Shown: positions 2,185 to 36,004 of the stretch, piece after piece | Layout: each line of letters opens with the position of its first letter | Position numbering within the stretch: position 1 is the first letter of the stretch | Assembly: GCF_900129725.1 (NCBI RefSeq) | Contig: NZ_FQWQ01000001.1 | Span: 1,178,001 to 1,242,000, forward strand | From: Chryseolinea serpens | GTDB taxonomy: Bacteria; Bacteroidota; Bacteroidia; Cytophagales; Cyclobacteriaceae | Direction: 5' to 3' | DNA length: 64,000 bases | Notes under the pieces: generated by a model | The model's database searches: none | What the model saw: the letters and a program-made list of their open reading frames with translations, nothing else | Told to the model about the DNA's origin: nothing | Position numbers and translations under genes: made by a program

Positions 2185-3499
2185 CGTCGCTTTTCTTCAT
2201 GAGTTCCCACTCCAGTTGGGGTCTGAAATAGGTCAGATCAAAAGGAGCATAAACATATTTTGGATTCTCGTACTGCACCTTGAATTTGACAACGCCATTG
2301 TAGACGTAATGTTCTTTCTTCACATTGATCAAATGCAACGTGAGCATATACGTATTGGTGGCAAAAAAATCCTTTGGGAAATGGCAGATAGCCGAGTACG
2401 ATCCGGGACGTATCGTGTTTTCATGAACGGCGGAGTCCGTTAACTGTGAATTCAGAATGGCATTGTTGTCATTGTCTACCACGGAAATCACAATCCTGAA
2501 ATCGGGAGCCACGAAATGAATATCGAAATCAAATTTGATGCTGATCGATTCTTTCGATGTGAAGGACGACGTTGGCTTGCCCTCCCCGTTTAAGATCGAA
2601 ACCTGGCGAAGCGTAAGAAAGGGTGATGTGCCGTCTTTCACACCATCCAGGTTTCTGCGCAAGGTCTCGCGATCCAGGATAGCCGGAAACTCGGAAATGC
2701 TGTCGACATTGAGGTTAAGATATTTTTCTACAGCGGTTGTTGTGTCGCCCTGATATTCCAATTGTCCTTGCCCCAGGATGATGCAGCTCTTGCAAAGTGT
2801 TTTAATGGACGGCATACTGTGACTCACAAACAAAACCGTTCTTCCATCGCCGCGGCTCACTTCCTGCATTTTGCCGATAGCTTTCTTTTGAAATTCAGCG
2901 TCCCCCACTGCCAGCACTTCGTCCACGATAAGAATTTCCGGTTCCAGGAACGCCGCCACAGCAAACCCCAGACGTACCATCATACCGGACGAATACCTTT
3001 TCACCGGCGTATCGACGTACTTCGCCACCCCGGCGAAATCCACAATTTCGTCGAATTTCCGATCGATCTCATGGCGTCGCATTCCGAGCACGGTTCCATT
3101 CATGTAGATGTTCTCACGGCCGGTCATCTCGGCATGAAATCCCGTTCCGACTTCCAGGAGCGAGGCCACTCTTCCTTTTATTTTCACCTCTCCCACCGAA
3201 GGCGCCGTGATCCGGGACAATATTTTCAATAACGTAGATTTACCGGCACCGTTTTTTCCGATCACACCCACAATGTCGCCCTGCCGTATTTGAAAACTCA
3301 TATTCCTCACGGCCCATACATACTCATTGTCAACAGCACGCTTTGTTCGGTCGTTGACGCTCCCAATTTTAGCATAGGGATCTTCCTTGCCTCGTGTTTT
3401 CGCCCACCAACGCTTCAGGTCATGGCTCAACGTACCCGTGCTTATTTCACCGAGTCGGTAGAGCTTACCCAAATTATCAACCTCTATAACAGTACTCAT
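2174..3499 (-). CDS. wzt: Polysaccharide ABC transporter ATP-binding protein with C-terminal Wzt domain
   Basis: This is the ATPase of a polysaccharide exporter, 441 residues. The nucleotide-binding domain has Walker A GKNGAGKST (81-89), the signature YSSGMM (about 169) and Walker B ILIVDEVLAVGD (about 189-200), followed by the switch histidine in FVSHSM. The extra 170 or so C-terminal residues match a Wzt C-terminal domain, a beta-sandwich that in O9a-type systems recognises the capped end of the glycan before export. It is encoded directly after the permease gene. The Wzt tail implies that export is tied to a specific end-modified polymer; the glycan itself is unknown. Confidence 0.92.
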   Translation of the reverse strand: MSTVIEVDNLGKLYRLGEISTGTLSHDLKRWWAKTRGKEDPYAKIGSVNDRTKRAVDNEYVWAVRNMSFQIRQGDIVGVIGKNGAGKSTLLKILSRITAPSVGEVKIKGRVASLLEVGTGFHAEMTGRENIYMNGTVLGMRRHEIDRKFDEIVDFAGVAKYVDTPVKRYSSGMMVRLGFAVAAFLEPEILIVDEVLAVGDAEFQKKAIGKMQEVSRGDGRTVLFVSHSMPSIKTLCKSCIILGQGQLEYQGDTTTAVEKYLNLNVDSISEFPAILDRETLRRNLDGVKDGTSPFLTLRQVSILNGEGKPTSSFTSKESISIKFDFDIHFVAPDFRIVISVVDNDNNAILNSQLTDSAVHENTIRPGSYSAICHFPKDFFATNTYMLTLHLINVKKEHYVYNGVVKFKVQYENPKYVYAPFDLTYFRPQLEWELMKKSDDEK

Positions 3500-3508
3500 A
3501 CGAAAATG

Positions 3509-4366
3509 CTAAACATTGTCAATAAATGTCTTCTCGACTTTACTAAAGGTCACCATCCCCAAGAAAAGAACAACGACCATAAAACAGGCGGTGTACGCTA
3601 AACCTCCCCATGACCAAGATCCCGCTCCCATAAAAGCATAGCGAAATCCTTCCACTATCGGCGTGACCGGGTTCAACAGGATATAAGACTTATATTTCTC
3701 CGGGACTGAAGAGAGTGGATAAATCACGGGAGTGGCGTACATCATTAGGGTGACGCCGAATTGAATAAGGAAAGTGAGGTCGCGATACTTCGCCGTCATG
3801 GAAGTAAACACAATACCGATACCCAATCCGAGACCCGCCATCAGGAGGATGAGCAGCGGGAAATATATGATGTGATAGTGCATTTGAATGGGAGTGCCTT
3901 TCAAAAGGTACACAACCATAACCACCACAAAAAACAAGAACTGGACAAAGAACTTTAATAGACCGGACAGAACCTTAGCAATGGGAACAATAATCCTCGG
4001 GAAATAGACCTTTCCAAACAAATTCGCATTGTCCGTAAAGGTTCTCGACGTGAGGGTCAGGGATTCCGAAAAATAGTTCCACACCACGATGCCCGCGCTG
4101 TAGAATAATGCCTTGGGGACACCATCCGTAGAAATGCCGGCAATTCCGCCAAAAACGACAATATAAATAACCGTAGTAAGAATGGGCTGTATAAAAAACC
4201 ATACAGGTCCTAGGACGGTTTGCTTGTAAATGATAACGACATCGCGTTTGACAAACATGTAAAGCAAATCCCGGTATCGTAACACGTCACGCCAAGGAAA
4301 CACGAACAAGCCGCTTCGAGGTCTGAGAATGGTATCCCACTTTTCATCTTGCTGCATAGTCTTCAT
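3509..4366 (-). CDS. wzm: Polysaccharide ABC transporter permease (ABC-2 type)
   Basis: This 285-residue inner-membrane permease has about six hydrophobic segments in its C-terminal two thirds. It carries the ABC-2 features of Wzm/TagG/KpsM proteins: an N-terminal amphipathic region followed by LLYMFVKRDVVIIYKQTVLGPVWFFIQP, quoted here only to show the coupling helix that contacts the ATPase. The ATPase gene follows 9 bases downstream, and the kinase gene lies 36 bases upstream. It moves a lipid-linked or end-capped glycan across the inner membrane. No truncation or frameshift is visible. Confidence 0.9.
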   Translation of the reverse strand: MKTMQQDEKWDTILRPRSGLFVFPWRDVLRYRDLLYMFVKRDVVIIYKQTVLGPVWFFIQPILTTVIYIVVFGGIAGISTDGVPKALFYSAGIVVWNYFSESLTLTSRTFTDNANLFGKVYFPRIIVPIAKVLSGLLKFFVQFLFFVVVMVVYLLKGTPIQMHYHIIYFPLLILLMAGLGLGIGIVFTSMTAKYRDLTFLIQFGVTLMMYATPVIYPLSSVPEKYKSYILLNPVTPIVEGFRYAFMGAGSWSWGGLAYTACFMVVVLFLGMVTFSKVEKTFIDNV

Positions 4367-31349: not shown

Positions 31350-31378
31350 ACCCGCCCCGAAACCGGGACGGGCAGCTC
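31350..31378 (-). terminator. Rho-independent terminator of the tRNA-like transcript
   Basis: On the minus strand a hairpin with stem arms CCCGTCCCGG and a G-rich partner ending CGGGGCGGG is followed by TTTTTTATT. It lies 32-59 bases beyond the 3' end of the downstream tRNA-like copy and about 110 bases before fadD. Confidence 0.8.
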
Positions 31379-31408: not shown

Positions 31409-31557
31409 CTGTAGAGGAAGGAGTCGAACCTCCACGGAGCGGTTAGGTGACAGACCTGATCCTGGTAGTAGTTACTGGGATCAGGGTGCTTACACTTTCT
31501 TCCGTACTCTCCACCCCCGAGACCGGAGGGCTTGTCTGCCAATTTCAACACCCTACA
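31409..31557 (-). ncRNA. tRNA-Leu-like RNA with 78-nt variable region, copy 1
   Basis: The minus strand folds as a class II tRNA. The acceptor is TGTAGGG/CTCTACA (7 pairs, one G-U) and positions 8-9 are TG. The D stem TTG/CAA encloses a Leu-type loop ending GGCAGA. The anticodon stem is CCCTC/GGGGG and the T arm is GGAGG-TTCGACT-CCTTC. Two things are abnormal. The anticodon loop is CGGTCTC, so position 33 is G, not the universal U. The variable region is 78 nt (31436-31513) instead of 12-20; it is closed by GGAG/CTCC and carries an internal perfect 8-bp hairpin (31455-31462 with 31478-31485). CCA is not encoded. A role in normal decoding seems unlikely; a tRNA mimic or decayed tRNA are the main alternatives. 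Confidence 0.75.
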
Positions 31558-31586
31558 ATGTTGTTGTGTGTGTGCGTGTGTGGTTG

Positions 31587-31704
31587 CTGTAGAGGGAGGG
31601 TTCGAACCTCCACGGAGCAGTTAGGTCGCCAAAGGCTGGACTTTATCCCGTTGTCTCCACCCCCGAGACCGGAGGGCTTGTCTGCCAAATTTCAACACCC
31701 TACA
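31587..31704 (-). ncRNA. tRNA-Leu-like RNA with 45-nt variable region, copy 2
   Basis: This is the first copy in the transcript. The acceptor, D stem, anticodon arm (including loop CGGTCTC) and closing GGAG/CTCC of the variable arm are identical to copy 1. The T arm is a perfect GGAGG-TTCGAAC-CCTCC. The inside of the variable arm (31618-31654) differs from copy 1 in length and sequence except for a conserved ACCTAAC segment next to CTCC. Both copies are preceded by a CA-rich leader (TGTGTGTG on the plus strand), so the unit duplicated is leader plus RNA. Compensated stems in both copies argue for a retained structure. Confidence 0.75.
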
Positions 31705-31753: not shown

Positions 31754-31787
31754 CAAAGTAACGCAAAAGCTGCTATGCTAAACAATG
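31754..31787 (-). promoter_or_regulatory. Candidate promoter of the tRNA-like pair
   Basis: On the minus strand CATTG (31783-31787) and, 21 bases on, TTACTTTG (31754-31761) approximate the -33 and -7 boxes; the -7 has one mismatch to TAnnTTTG. Transcription would begin about 40-50 bases before the first tRNA-like copy and run away from the lrp gene. Confidence 0.5.
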
Positions 31788-31860: not shown

Positions 31861-32325
31861 ATGGCCGAAAATTATAAAGTTGACAATGTCGACCTGAAGA
31901 TCCTCGAAATCCTCATGCAAGACGCCAAAAAGCCTTATACGGAAGTAGCCAAGAAAGCATTTGTCTCCGGGGGCACCGTCCACGTCCGCATGAATAAGCT
32001 CGAAGAAGCCGGTATTGTCGAGAAAACAACCCTGAAAGTGAACTATGCCAAGCTGGGCTACGACATCACAGCCTTCATTGGCATCTTCCTTCAGAAGAGC
32101 GCCCTCTATGACCAGGTGATGGCCAAACTCAAAGCCATCCCCGAGATCACGAACATCCACTACACCACCGGAAACTACAGCATGTTCACAAAGATCCACT
32201 GCAAGGACACCAATCACCTCAAACAGGTGTTACACGACAAGATCCAGCAAGTGGAAGGCATCGAACGGACGGAGACCATGATATCGTTGGAAGAGAGCCT
32301 GGACAGGAGTTTGAACCTCACCTGA
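31861..32325 (+). CDS. Lrp/AsnC family transcriptional regulator
   Basis: This 154-residue regulator has an N-terminal winged helix-turn-helix (NVDLKILEILMQDAKKPYTE and VAKKAFVSGGTVHVRMNKLE, about 8-55) and a C-terminal RAM/AsnC ligand-binding domain (about 70-150). Such proteins sense amino acids and form octamers. It lies 109 bases upstream of sufB and is divergent from the tRNA-like RNAs. The suf operon has its own promoter, so the gene may be monocistronic. The effector is unknown; control of the suf operon or the tRNA-like pair is only a positional guess. Confidence 0.92.
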   Translation: MAENYKVDNVDLKILEILMQDAKKPYTEVAKKAFVSGGTVHVRMNKLEEAGIVEKTTLKVNYAKLGYDITAFIGIFLQKSALYDQVMAKLKAIPEITNIHYTTGNYSMFTKIHCKDTNHLKQVLHDKIQQVEGIERTETMISLEESLDRSLNLT

Positions 32326-32434: not shown

Positions 32435-33880
32435 ATGAGTAAAGACAATCAGGTTTTAGAGGAGTTGACCTCGAAGGAGTACGAACATGGCTGGACTATA
32501 GATATAGAAACCGATTCGGCGCCTAAGGGTCTCAACGAGAGTATCATACGGTTTATTTCCACCAAAAAGAACGAGCCTGAATGGTTGCTGGAGTGGCGTT
32601 TGAGCGCTTTTCGCCAGTGGACCAAGATGAAGGAGCCCAAATGGCCCAACGTGACCTACCCTCCCATCGATTACCAGGACCTCATTTACTATTCTGCTCC
32701 CAAACAAAAAGCAAAAGCCAAAAATCTCGAAGATGTCGACCCTGAGTTGATCAAAACTTTCGAGAAGCTGGGCATTTCTTTGACGGAGCAAAAACGCCTT
32801 ACCGGTATCGCGGTAGATGCCGTGATCGACAGCGTTTCCGTCGCTACTACTTATAAGGAAACACTCGCCGAGCTGGGCATCATCTTTTGCTCTTTCAGTG
32901 AAGCCGTTCAGGAACATCCTGAATTGGTGAAGAAATACATGGGATCTGTGGTCCCTGTGAACGACAACTATTTCGCCGCACTGAATTCTGCGGTATTCAC
33001 AGACGGATCTTTCTGCTACATCCCCAAAGGTGTGCGCTGCCCGATGGAATTGTCGACGTACTTCCGCATCAATGCCGCCAACACAGGTCAGTTCGAAAGA
33101 ACGCTTATCGTGGCAGATGAAGGAGCTTATGTGAGTTACCTCGAAGGCTGCACGGCACCCATGCGTGACGAAAATCAACTTCACGCCGCCGTCGTAGAGA
33201 TCTATGCCATGAAAGATGCGCAAGTAAAATACTCTACTGTGCAAAACTGGTATCCCGGCGACAAGAATGGCAAAGGTGGTATCTACAACTTCGTGACGAA
33301 ACGCGGCTTGTGCTTTGGCGACAGCTCGAAGATTTCGTGGACACAAGTGGAAACAGGCTCGGCCATCACCTGGAAATATCCTTCGTGTATTTTGAAGGGC
33401 GACAACTCCATGGGCGAATTCTATTCCGTGGCCGTCACCAACAATTATCAGCAAGCCGACACGGGCACGAAGATGATCCACATTGGCAAGAACACGAAGT
33501 CGCGCATCGTATCGAAAGGAATTTCCGCGGGTCACTCGCAAAACAGCTACCGTGGCCAGGTGCATATCATGAAACGCGCCGAAAATGCGCGCAACTTCTC
33601 ACAATGCGATTCGCTCCTGATGGGCGATAAATGTGGGGCGCACACCTTCCCCTACATCGACGTAGAGAACAACACGGCACGCATCGAACACGAAGCCACC
33701 ACATCCAAGATCGGTGAAGACCAGATCTTCTACTGTTTGCAACGCGGCATCGACGAAGAATCGGCCGTGGCATTGATCGTGAACGGTTATGCTAAGGAAG
33801 TGTTGAACCAACTCCCCATGGAGTTTGCCGTGGAAGCGCAAAAACTTTTGGCCCTTACCCTCGAAGGCAGCGTAGGGTAA
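32435..33880 (+). CDS. sufB: Fe-S cluster assembly scaffold protein SufB
   Basis: This 481-residue scaffold of the SufBC2D complex builds [Fe-S] clusters. The characteristic N-terminal [14 protein letters not shown]-type region, the beta-helix core with [20 protein letters not shown] and [20 protein letters not shown], the [20 protein letters not shown] segment carrying the conserved cysteine, and the C-terminal [20 protein letters not shown] helices are all present. Length is normal. It is the first gene of a run sufB-C-D-S-E-T followed by a bacilliredoxin. No SufA-type carrier is encoded in the run. Confidence 0.97.
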
Positions 33881-33919
33881 TTATCTCATCTTATTTTTTT
33901 ACAATCGGAATTACGAACT

Positions 33920-34675
33920 ATGTTAAGCATAAAGAATCTGACAGCGAAGATCGGCGACAAGCAAATATTGAACGGTATCAACCTGGAAGTAAAACCGGGC
34001 GAAGTGCATGCCATCATGGGCCCCAACGGCTCTGGCAAAAGCACCTTGGCCTCCGTGTTGGCCGGCCGCGAGGAATATGAAGTGATGGCGGGTGAAGTGG
34101 ACTTCCTCGGCAAAGATCTGCTGGCACTCGCTCCGGAAGATCGCGCCCGTGAAGGATTGTTCCTCGCCTTTCAATACCCCGTGGAAATTCCCGGTGTGAG
34201 CACGATCAACTTTATGAAAACGGCGCTGAACCAGATCCTGGAACACCGCGGCCAGCAACCCTTGGATGCGGTCTCGTTTCTGAAGCTGATGAAAGAAAAA
34301 ATGAAGCTCGTGGAGATCGATCAATCGTTGTTGAACAGGTCTTTGAATGAAGGCTTCAGCGGCGGCGAAAAGAAACGCAACGAGATCTTCCAAATGGCCA
34401 TGCTGGAACCCAAACTCGCCATCCTCGACGAAACCGATTCGGGTCTCGACATCGATGCCTTGAAGATCGTGGCAAACGGTGTGAACAAGCTGCGCAATAA
34501 ATCAAACGCCGTAGTCGTGGTGACTCACTATCAGCGCCTGCTGGATTATATCGTGCCAGACTATGTACATGTGCTCTACAAAGGCAAGATCGTGAAGTCG
34601 GGAACGAAAGACCTGGCCCTGGAGCTGGAAGCAAAAGGATACGATTGGATCAAAGACGAAGTGGCCATTGCCTAA
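33920..34675 (+). CDS. sufC: Fe-S cluster assembly ATPase SufC
   Basis: This 251-residue ABC-type ATPase drives conformational change in the SufBCD scaffold. It has Walker A GPNGSGKST (35-43), the Q loop in FLAFQYPVEIPGV, signature FSGGEKKRNEI (about 143) and Walker B LAILDETDSGLD, the DSGLD form being typical for SufC. It lies between sufB (39 bases upstream) and sufD (15 bases downstream). Confidence 0.97.
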   Translation: MLSIKNLTAKIGDKQILNGINLEVKPGEVHAIMGPNGSGKSTLASVLAGREEYEVMAGEVDFLGKDLLALAPEDRAREGLFLAFQYPVEIPGVSTINFMKTALNQILEHRGQQPLDAVSFLKLMKEKMKLVEIDQSLLNRSLNEGFSGGEKKRNEIFQMAMLEPKLAILDETDSGLDIDALKIVANGVNKLRNKSNAVVVVTHYQRLLDYIVPDYVHVLYKGKIVKSGTKDLALELEAKGYDWIKDEVAIA

Positions 34676-34690
34676 CCCGGAACAGAGCGC

Positions 34691-36004
34691 ATGAACGTAG
34701 CGGTGAACGAGAAAAACACGACCCCGGAAATGGTTAGCCAAATTCAAAAAAGCATAACCCAATATCCGGCCCAAGCCTACCGGAAGGAAGCCCTGGAAGC
34801 TTTTCAGAAGCTGGGTCTTCCGGAAAATAAATCGGAAGAATATAAAAACACGCCCATCACCCGGTTGCTGCAAAAGAACTTTGTGTTCGACCAACCCAAT
34901 GCAGCAGCACAAAAACTTGATGTTAAGGATTTCTTTATTCCCGGCGTCGAAGGAAATGTGATCGTGGTGATCAACGGCGTCTTTTCAGAGGAGCATTCGG
35001 TTATCGTTTCGCCGTCCTCGGAAATAACCATCACAAACCTGGGCACCGCTATCGCCGGACAACATCCGGTAGCCATTGCCCATTTGGCCAAATATGCCGA
35101 CACGGCTGCGGATGCATTCACCGCCTGGAACACCGCCACGTGGCAAAGCGGCGTATTCATTCACGTGCCGAAAGGCAAAGTAGTGGAGAAGCCTATCGTG
35201 ATCTACCATATCCATGACACCCGTGGAGGTCAGGTGATCACGGCGAGCCGCAATCTGATCGTGACCGAGTTGAACAGCGAGGTCACCATCGTAGAGAAAT
35301 TTGATTCAGTAGGCAGTGGCAATCATTTTTCCACGCTTGTTACCGAAGTGGAGGTCGCCGAAAATGCGGGCTTCAATCACTATACCATACAAAACGACGC
35401 CGGCAATCGCTACCAGGTTGTCACCACCAACATTCACCAGGAAAGATCGAGCCGTGTCAATACCTATACGTTTACCCTTTCCGGTAAGCTGGTACGGAAT
35501 AACTTACAGCTTTCCATCGACGGTGAAGGAATTGAGTCGCACATGTTCGGCTTGTACCTGGTGACGGGCGATACACTGGCCGATAACCACACCGTGGTGG
35601 ATCACCGGAAAGCAAATTCGTTTAGCAACGAGCTTTACAAAGGAATTATGGATGGAAACTCCCGCGGAGTTTTCAATGGCAAGATCTATGTGCGTCCCCA
35701 GGCGCAGAAAACCAATGCGTTTCAGGCCAACCGGAACATCCTGATGTCCGACAAGGCCACGGTGAACACCAAGCCCCAACTGGAGATCTGGGCCGACGAT
35801 GTGAAATGCTCTCACGGTTGCACTACGGGGCAACTGGACGAAGAAGCATTGTTCTACCTGCAGACCCGCGGCATTGCCAAGGAAACGGCACGCGCCATGA
35901 TGCTCTACGCTTTTGCGGCCGAAATCCTGGAAAATGTGAAACACGCGGAACTGAAAGCGTACCTCGATCAGTTAGTGAGTGAACGGCTTCACAAAAACTT
36001 CTGA
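34691..36004 (+). CDS. sufD: Fe-S cluster assembly protein SufD
   Basis: This 437-residue SufB paralogue forms the heterodimeric scaffold with SufB. It has a helical N-terminal domain, a central beta-helix (GVFIHVPKGKVVEKPIVIYH region) and the conserved C-terminal part KCSHGCTTGQLDEEALFYLQ followed by TRGIAKETARAMMLYAFA, which includes the histidine/cysteine region implicated at the SufB-SufD interface. The sufS start codon follows 3 bases after its stop. Confidence 0.96.
   Translation: MNVAVNEKNTTPEMVSQIQKSITQYPAQAYRKEALEAFQKLGLPENKSEEYKNTPITRLLQKNFVFDQPNAAAQKLDVKDFFIPGVEGNVIVVINGVFSEEHSVIVSPSSEITITNLGTAIAGQHPVAIAHLAKYADTAADAFTAWNTATWQSGVFIHVPKGKVVEKPIVIYHIHDTRGGQVITASRNLIVTELNSEVTIVEKFDSVGSGNHFSTLVTEVEVAENAGFNHYTIQNDAGNRYQVVTTNIHQERSSRVNTYTFTLSGKLVRNNLQLSIDGEGIESHMFGLYLVTGDTLADNHTVVDHRKANSFSNELYKGIMDGNSRGVFNGKIYVRPQAQKTNAFQANRNILMSDKATVNTKPQLEIWADDVKCSHGCTTGQLDEEALFYLQTRGIAKETARAMMLYAFAAEILENVKHAELKAYLDQLVSERLHKNF

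Follow-up and report, generated by a model that had tools for sequence, protein, structure and literature searches.

The window, as we call the whole stretch of DNA analyzed here, comprises 64,000 nt of Chryseolinea serpens (GCF_900129725.1, contig NZ_FQWQ01000001.1, forward-strand positions 1,178,001 to 1,242,000) and carries two tRNA-like RNA units on its minus strand: copy 1 at 31587..31704 (118 nt), with a short apical hairpin in its variable arm, and copy 2 at 31409..31557 (149 nt), with a long variable arm that contains a CCTGATCC...GGATCAGG hairpin. They score 124.9 and 115.0 bits, respectively, against the covariance model R1 described below. Both fold as class II tRNAs, with a 7-bp acceptor stem, a 3-bp D stem, a 5-bp anticodon stem and a 5-bp T stem with TTCGA, and in both the anticodon loop reads CGGTCTC, placing a G at position 33. 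The initial annotation of this DNA had claimed two minus-strand class II units with intact arms, and both were recovered at that place (31704..31587 and 31557..31409). It was also right that the variable arms are large; the lengths it gave, 78 and 45 nt, become about 80 nt (copy 2) and about 48 nt (copy 1) when all bases from the anticodon stem to the T stem are counted, a difference of borders alone.

Upstream of copy 1, at 31754..31785 of the minus strand, a promoter-like element can be read from the sequence as TTG, 21 nt and TTACTTTG, one mismatch away from the Bacteroidota consensus TTG...TAnnTTTG. A Rho-independent terminator-like hairpin of 10 pairs with a T run after it lies 3' of copy 2, at 31350..31373 on the same strand; as the terminator scan gave one site against a shuffle mean of 0.6, the hairpin is backed by its position and not by number. 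Divergent from the RNA units, 157 nt off copy 1, stands an AsnC/Lrp-family regulator gene (31861..32325, plus strand, 154 aa), whose product matches Pfam AsnC_trans_reg and HTH_AsnC-type over the cut-off, and NCBIfam PRK11179 AsnC at 170.9 bits, under the cut-off of 227. Genes that we read as suf-type follow 3' of the asnC-like gene at 32435-36004 of the window and in many related contexts. Across 40 contexts of the RNA (about 6 kb on each side, some of them from one genome), six gene families occur in at least five. We read them as the AsnC gene, genes of suf type (with one cluster also taking in other ABC proteins), an acyl-CoA ligase and a small protein found repeatedly at those same asnC loci.

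The window copies were called neither by ARAGORN nor by Rfam at gathering scores, and at E values up to 10 Rfam gave only matches far under any gathering score (best E 0.15). In the 8.36-Mb window genome there are 49 tRNA hits; within the stretches that were fetched, ARAGORN found 48 genes for tRNAs, covering all 20 amino acids and including five for tRNA-Leu and one for tRNA-Asp. tRNA-Tyr, tRNA-Asn, tRNA-Cys and tRNA-Lys(ttt) have two genes each, and a weak tRNA hit at C8:387786-387856 of G000 (30.9 bits) received no ARAGORN call.

An RNA family of Bacteroidota and their phages

Used as a DNA query, copy 1 found matches in 74 of 98 relatives, and a full-length alignment extends across 30 copies. 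The covariance model R1 was built from 22 of these first 30 aligned copies, leaving out L002, L003, L004, L006 and L007, which lie near copies that were kept, together with L013, L016 and L029. For the 22 relatives in the alignment, standard pairs fill 96.4% of the pair cells (shuffles, 88.0%; partners slid, no more than 61.6%), and 61 cells have changed on both sides; for neither value was any of 500 shuffles as high, and a weaker measure, the number of pairs with both-sided change (nine), was reached in 33 of the 500. The larger set holds 105 distinct copies drawn from 136 hits in 93 sources, with L097-L103 and L105 omitted because their genomes were already included as 3-kb loci. In that set, whose alignment was fitted to the covariance model and whose pair counts lean toward it, both-sided change is seen in 20 of 29 pairs, no shuffle out of 500 was as high in any of the five measures, and sliding the partners drops pairing to 55-62%. 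The initial annotation had made its case depend first on homologues with compensatory stem changes, and these were found.

The covarying parts, judged from the 105 copies, are the D, anticodon, variable-arm, apical, T and lower acceptor stems, and the first three acceptor pairs and G73 are constant in 105 of 105. In the variable arm a basal stem leads through a conserved GGAUAAA/CUAAC internal loop to an apical part of differing length, giving a variable region of 55 nt (median) and at most 123 nt in the relatives; GAGCTC or GAGCTT occurs in 30 and TTGACC in 20 of the 105 copies. Copies are single or in tandem, with a leader and the body and, judged by eye, frequently a terminator. Given the strong covariation and the invariant positions, above all at the acceptor end, we reject decayed pseudogenes: to judge from its sequences, this is a real and strongly conserved RNA family. 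A protein-coding reading of the conserved region was likewise ruled out, as the length of the D loop differs by one to three bases.

With the covariance model, members score 64.5 to 147 bits and hits as long as a tRNA-Leu no more than about 61 bits, so that the two are set apart. In the phylum sample we counted a genome as carrying the RNA at 64.5 bits or more, which gives 41 of 395 genomes; the raw tally, 343 of 395, also contains hits some 82-87 nt long that score up to 61 bits and were taken for tRNA-Leu genes by their length. No family of Rfam 15 matches the RNA, and our literature search, mainly of papers outside subscription, found no description of it. As far as these two sources show, the family is undescribed, in agreement with the first impression that no described class has such features.

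Several variants accompany the main form. Two weak hits kept outside the copy counts, at L123:5362-5455 (26.9 bits) and L121:6877-6943 (21.1 bits), both on minus strands, are shortened relatives that retain only the acceptor stem, the T arm and the conserved trailer with its terminator; lacking the D and anticodon arms, they are either minihelix-like RNAs or decayed copies. A trailer similar in sequence to CAGGTTATTTTGGGTTTATTGTTAATTGACTAA, followed by a terminator-like hairpin, lies 3' of the RNA in L094-L096 and L121-L129, and in one subtype this trailer is near-identical across genera, though tRNA-like processing should remove it. At L134:5339-5414, on the minus strand, a 76-nt member lacks the giant arm and has the loop CTATCTC; its host, G071, has AsnA and lacks GlnRS.

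A search with a DNA pattern returned at least 120 stretches in named genomes, and all 80 among the matches listed bear Bacteroidota names, among them Chitinophaga, Dyadobacter, Spirosoma, Algoriphagus, Cyclobacterium, Echinicola, Niabella, Saprospiraceae and others. The same pattern occurs in 114 viral contigs, of which 80 were fetched from IMG/VR (L290-L369); each of the 80 holds one match to the RNA (67-120 bits), complete in 79 and ended by the contig edge in one. ARAGORN, run on 25 phage loci, placed at least one tRNA gene nearby in 22 and at least five tRNA or tmRNA genes in 12, with tRNA-Ser often adjoining the RNA. This company of tRNA genes suggests tRNA-like processing and use of the RNA. 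Ten proteins of seven contigs were compared with PHROGs; six contigs gave matches (RNA and DNA ligases, exonucleases, DNA polymerase, GroEL and carbamoyltransferase) and L337 gave none. U1-A72 is present in 58 and G73 in 60 of the 61 distinct phage copies. In 40 of these 61 the arm contains G(G/A)TTGACCA, and some phage copies have the perfect palindrome TTGTGCACAA. Two phage copies had no match among 50,697 records of cultured phages.

Identity elements and loss of decoding features

The constant acceptor bases are U1-A72, G2-C71, U3-A70 and G73, each found in 105 of 105 distinct copies. The anticodon loop has GUC at positions 34-36 in 100 of the 105 (the remaining five read CUC in three copies, UUC in one and AUC in one) and C38 in all of them; its commonest form, CUGUCUC, differs from the CUGUCAC of the window genome's tRNA-Asp at position 37 alone. 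According to part of PMC9976931, the five strong Asp determinants are G73, G34, U35, C36 and C38, which are the very bases of the RNA (G73 in 105/105, GUC in 100/105, C38 in 105/105). Bacterial tRNA-Asp is there credited, again in a portion of the text, with G1-C72 and G10 as additional elements; the former is absent from the RNA, and G10 is rare, the position-10 pair being AU in 46 copies, UA in 41, GC in 6 and another in 12. Passages of PMC9976931 and PMC4206432 state that U1-A72 permits amidation of Asp-tRNA-Asn by GatCAB and that tRNA-Asp escapes by G1-C72 and U20a. This GatCAB determinant, U1-A72, is present in all 105 cellular copies. The D loop, AAATTGGCAGA in the RNA against AAATTGGTAGA in the genome's own tRNA-Leu genes, is of Leu type (GGCAGA) and has A, not U, after C20; it is longer than that of tRNA-Asn, so the comparison with U20a is loose.

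Taken together, G73, the Asp-type loop and U1-A72 point to the enzymes of aspartate and asparagine. Leucine identity is rejected on account of G73 in 105 of 105 copies, as tRNA-Leu has A73, so that the tRNA-Leu-like character first proposed stands for the D loop and the long variable arm and falls for identity. The absence of U33, also claimed at the outset, holds for the window copies and fails as a family trait: U33 occurs in 66 and G33 in 31 of the 105 copies, in a lineage-specific manner. Position 37 is always a pyrimidine (U in 103, C in 2). The features of decoding, U33 and a purine at 37, are thus not kept as far as the aligned copies tell, and G33 and U37 are unlike a decoding tRNA. 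The initial annotation's idea of selection on the tRNA shape and not on decoding agrees well with a free position 33, a pyrimidine at 37 and covarying arms; among the functions it offered, an aminoacylated RNA outside translation fits best, with an identity of Asp/Asn type in place of leucine.

Distribution with GatCAB, AsnC and asparagine synthetases

The invariant bases gave rise to the idea of an RNA charged by AspRS and amidated by GatCAB, and gatB, from which alone we judged the presence of GatCAB, was looked for next. It is present in 41 of the 41 RNA-positive genomes of the phylum sample (395 genomes) and in all 56 RNA-positive genomes among the 325 of a class sample; 30 of these 56 are new, which makes 71 of 71 overall. 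The hypergeometric value for gatB with the RNA in the class sample is 4.6e-9, and the Fisher values are tiny, the latter being uncorrected for phylogeny. Among the genomes examined the RNA is found only with GatCAB. The reverse does not hold, and gatB alone does not predict the RNA: under strict filters, and with the Gln-tRNA uses of GatCAB included, 56 of the 239 class-sample genomes over the gatB cut-off show it. Among 29 RNA-negative genomes hand-picked from those listed (16 of the same class, 13 not), 13 have gatB, 12 of which lie outside the class, the other being G138, which has no GlnRS. Among the genomes that were checked for GlnRS and have it, the split is complete, with gatB in 34 of 34 genomes with the RNA versus 0 of 12 without it.

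AsnRS is over the cut-off in 41 of 41 RNA-positive genomes, which leaves GatCAB unexplained by the charging of tRNA-Asn; with GlnRS also present in 34 of the 41, GatCAB has no evident canonical duty in these 34. A specialized AspRS in RNA-positive genomes was looked for and not found: among the 21 AspRS sequences compared (580-611 aa, of bacterial type by our own reading), no alignment column tracks the RNA between the 11 from RNA-positive and the 10 from RNA-negative genomes. This likeness fits charging by an ordinary AspRS and lends it no positive support. No second full-length asnS- or aspS-like protein is conspicuous among the strong hits of the RNA-positive genomes; two of these genomes have shorter asnS-like ORFs, of 346 aa (G088) and 195 aa (G479).

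The distribution of canonical AsnB is the mirror image of that of the RNA. Canonical AsnB (NF006949 over the cut-off) is present in 0 of 41 RNA-positive genomes versus 31 of 39 RNA-negative ones, the latter hand-picked from those listed and all of the same class, and two more of the 39 fall just under the cut-off (491 and 494 bits). Among the genomes examined the RNA never occurs with canonical AsnB. AsnA is present in 4 of the 41 and 8 of the 39, so that 37 of 41 RNA-positive genomes have neither enzyme. The pattern is repeated within family f23: gatB is present, and both AsnA and canonical AsnB are missing, in seven RNA-positive genomes, and three RNA-negative genomes show the opposite, with canonical AsnB but no gatB, and with AsnA too in two of the three. 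AsnB-family paralogues over the broad TIGR01536 cut-off, most of them of about 600-690 aa, are found in 36 of the 41 RNA-positive genomes, including that of the window, where two of the three strongest lie among genes that we read as polysaccharide-type. In five RNA-positive genomes (G412, G361, G087, G069 and G245) AsnA is absent and nothing of the AsnB family passes either cut-off, and weaker AsnB-family hits remain in them.

The regulator, too, goes with the RNA. AsnC-family proteins at E<=1e-25 occur in 99 of the 395 genomes of the phylum sample, 44 at the level of orthologues (at least 167 bits) and 55 more distant (at most 150 bits). The orthologue is present in all 41 RNA-positive genomes and in 3 of the 354 others, and those three are all without gatB; within this sample, the RNA is found only with an AsnC-family regulator. 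In 30 of the 41 genomes asnC is divergent from the RNA at a distance of 123-217 nt. G150 and G447 have the same layout with a different partner: there an AsnC-like gene of lower similarity (109 and 112 bits, respectively) lies divergent from an AsnB gene. No remnant of the RNA was found near asnC in G099, G451 and G218 at E<=1. An AsnC-like gene convergent on asnS is seen in G439, which has no RNA (L141:2129-2599 and 2666-4072). The exact motif TAnnTTTG occurs in 25 of 39 asnC-RNA intergenic regions versus 6.4 in shuffles. A candidate operator, TTGAAATATTTGCAA, with 13 or more of 15 positions matching in 10 of the 39 regions versus 0.16 in shuffles, was set aside as a lead: it overlaps the presumed -33 box, was picked by eye from the same sequences and is matched in the window's intergenic region at 11 of 15 positions only.

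A possible asparagine carrier and its alternatives

We consider it likely that the RNA has some direct role in GatCAB or asparagine metabolism. For the form of that role, we incline, at slightly better than an even chance, to a non-decoding carrier derived from tRNA-Leu that would be charged by AspRS and amidated by GatCAB, and would so supply asparagine. In such a pathway the transcript would be processed by RNase P and given CCA in the fashion of a tRNA, Asp would be attached by the cell's ordinary AspRS, and GatCAB would amidate it to Asn by way of U1-A72; the altered loop and the giant arm would bar an Asn-RNA that bears an Asp anticodon from the ribosome, and the divergent AsnC-type regulator would tune transcription of the RNA to asparagine. 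Release of Asn, for AsnRS and for metabolism, would be the weakest step: by our estimate the ester would probably hydrolyze too slowly without an enzyme for this to be the sole means, and we know of no Asn-releasing enzyme. The broader proposition, which we advance tentatively and at a little less than even chance, is that a non-decoding RNA gene stands in place of a metabolic enzyme gene, an Asp-to-Asn carrier that would substitute for asparagine synthetase in much of Bacteroidota, in the same divergent arrangement with an asparagine-type regulator that asnB shows in some relatives, and carried by phages among their tRNA genes. If true, this would explain where many Bacteroidota with AsnRS and GlnRS, and with neither AsnA nor canonical AsnB, obtain their asparagine, and why they retain GatCAB; it would present an RNA gene devoted to the making of an amino acid, with decoding abandoned, and a testable reason for phage carriage. 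The same puzzle, AsnRS, GlnRS and GatCAB with no Asn synthetase, is noted for 18 genera of several phyla in part of PMC4206432.

In an alternative that we hold unlikely, ordinary tRNA-Asn would itself be the carrier on which a non-discriminating AspRS and GatCAB produce asparagine, with the RNA scaffolding the transamidosome or reporting Asp/Asn charging to control the pathway; some role as sensor, decoy or scaffold may exist. Such a role accounts for the RNA's tie to GatCAB and the AsnC gene, and passages of PMC4206432 deem the tRNA-Asn route likely in bacteria, including Bacteroidetes, with AsnRS, GlnRS and GatCAB and no Asn synthetase. The window genome has two tRNA-Asn genes, of which one carries U1-A72, and the self-complementary stretches of several apical parts (GAGCTC, and TTGTGCACAA in phage copies) could dimerize the RNA. 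A pure scaffold, however, has no obvious need of a complete Asp loop with invariant G73 and U1-A72, and AspRS is alike in genomes with and without the RNA. The identity elements would also fit an RNA that donates its amino acid, Asp or Asn, to an enzyme acting on peptides, lipids or the cell wall and yields no free Asn, and dedicated donor tRNAs exist, such as the staphylococcal tRNA-Gly for peptidoglycan; we nonetheless think this quite improbable, for the common neighbors in the 40 contexts include no candidate transferase within about 6 kb on each side, and the mirror-image distribution with AsnB points to a supply of free Asn.

Still a little less probable is a serine acceptor, charged by SerRS through G73 and the long variable arm. 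The change of A73 to G73 reportedly turns human tRNA-Leu into a serine acceptor, and the body of the RNA is tRNA-Leu-like. Part of PMC9976931 gives G73, G2-C71 and a large variable region as determinants of serine identity, but C72, listed there for bacterial Ser, is absent from 105 of 105 copies (all A72), and C11-G24 is the exception, the pair that we number 11-24 being UA in 92 copies, CG in 10 and UG in 1. Serine charging would, moreover, leave unexplained the GUC-C loop and the tie to GatCAB, AsnC and AsnB. It is scarcely credible that the units are plain or degenerate tRNA genes without a function apart, or that the fold is an artefact: the missing ARAGORN and Rfam calls, a genome with tRNA genes for all 20 amino acids and the two shortened copies in relatives would suit such an origin, but covariation, the invariant acceptor end, promoter-like elements beyond chance and phage carriage speak against it, as do the co-occurrence with gatB and asnC and the avoidance of canonical AsnB.

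The asparagine carrier that we favor would have its nearest parallel in tRNA-dependent Asn synthesis, in which a non-discriminating AspRS and GatCAB act on tRNA-Asn (Deinococcus, Thermus, Bdellovibrio, S. aureus). The two are alike in GatCAB and U1-A72 and, in the RNA-positive genomes, in the general absence of a canonical Asn synthetase beside AsnRS and, in 34 of 41, GlnRS; they differ in that a separate RNA is present here, with an Asp-type anticodon loop and features incompatible with decoding. With tRNA-Leu the RNA shares the type of D loop, the long variable arm and the general body, but it has G73 in place of A73, U1-A72 in place of G1-C72, an Asp-like loop and a larger variable region. 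It resembles tRNA-Asp in its loop (CUGUCUC in many relatives and CGGUCUC in the window, against CUGUCAC), G73, G2-C71 and C38, and departs from it in U1-A72, U37, the class II arm and the rarity of G at position 10. The staphylococcal tRNA-Gly for peptidoglycan is a dedicated non-translational tRNA and thus likewise a tRNA-derived RNA reserved for metabolism, though with a different amino acid, different enzymes and a different structure. Finally, tRNA-Sec and the allo-tRNAs, as described in part in PMC7609411 and as generally understood, are also of class II and unusual in shape, whereas the RNA reported here keeps the standard 7/5 acceptor and T stems, has no UCA anticodon and is extended in its variable arm only.
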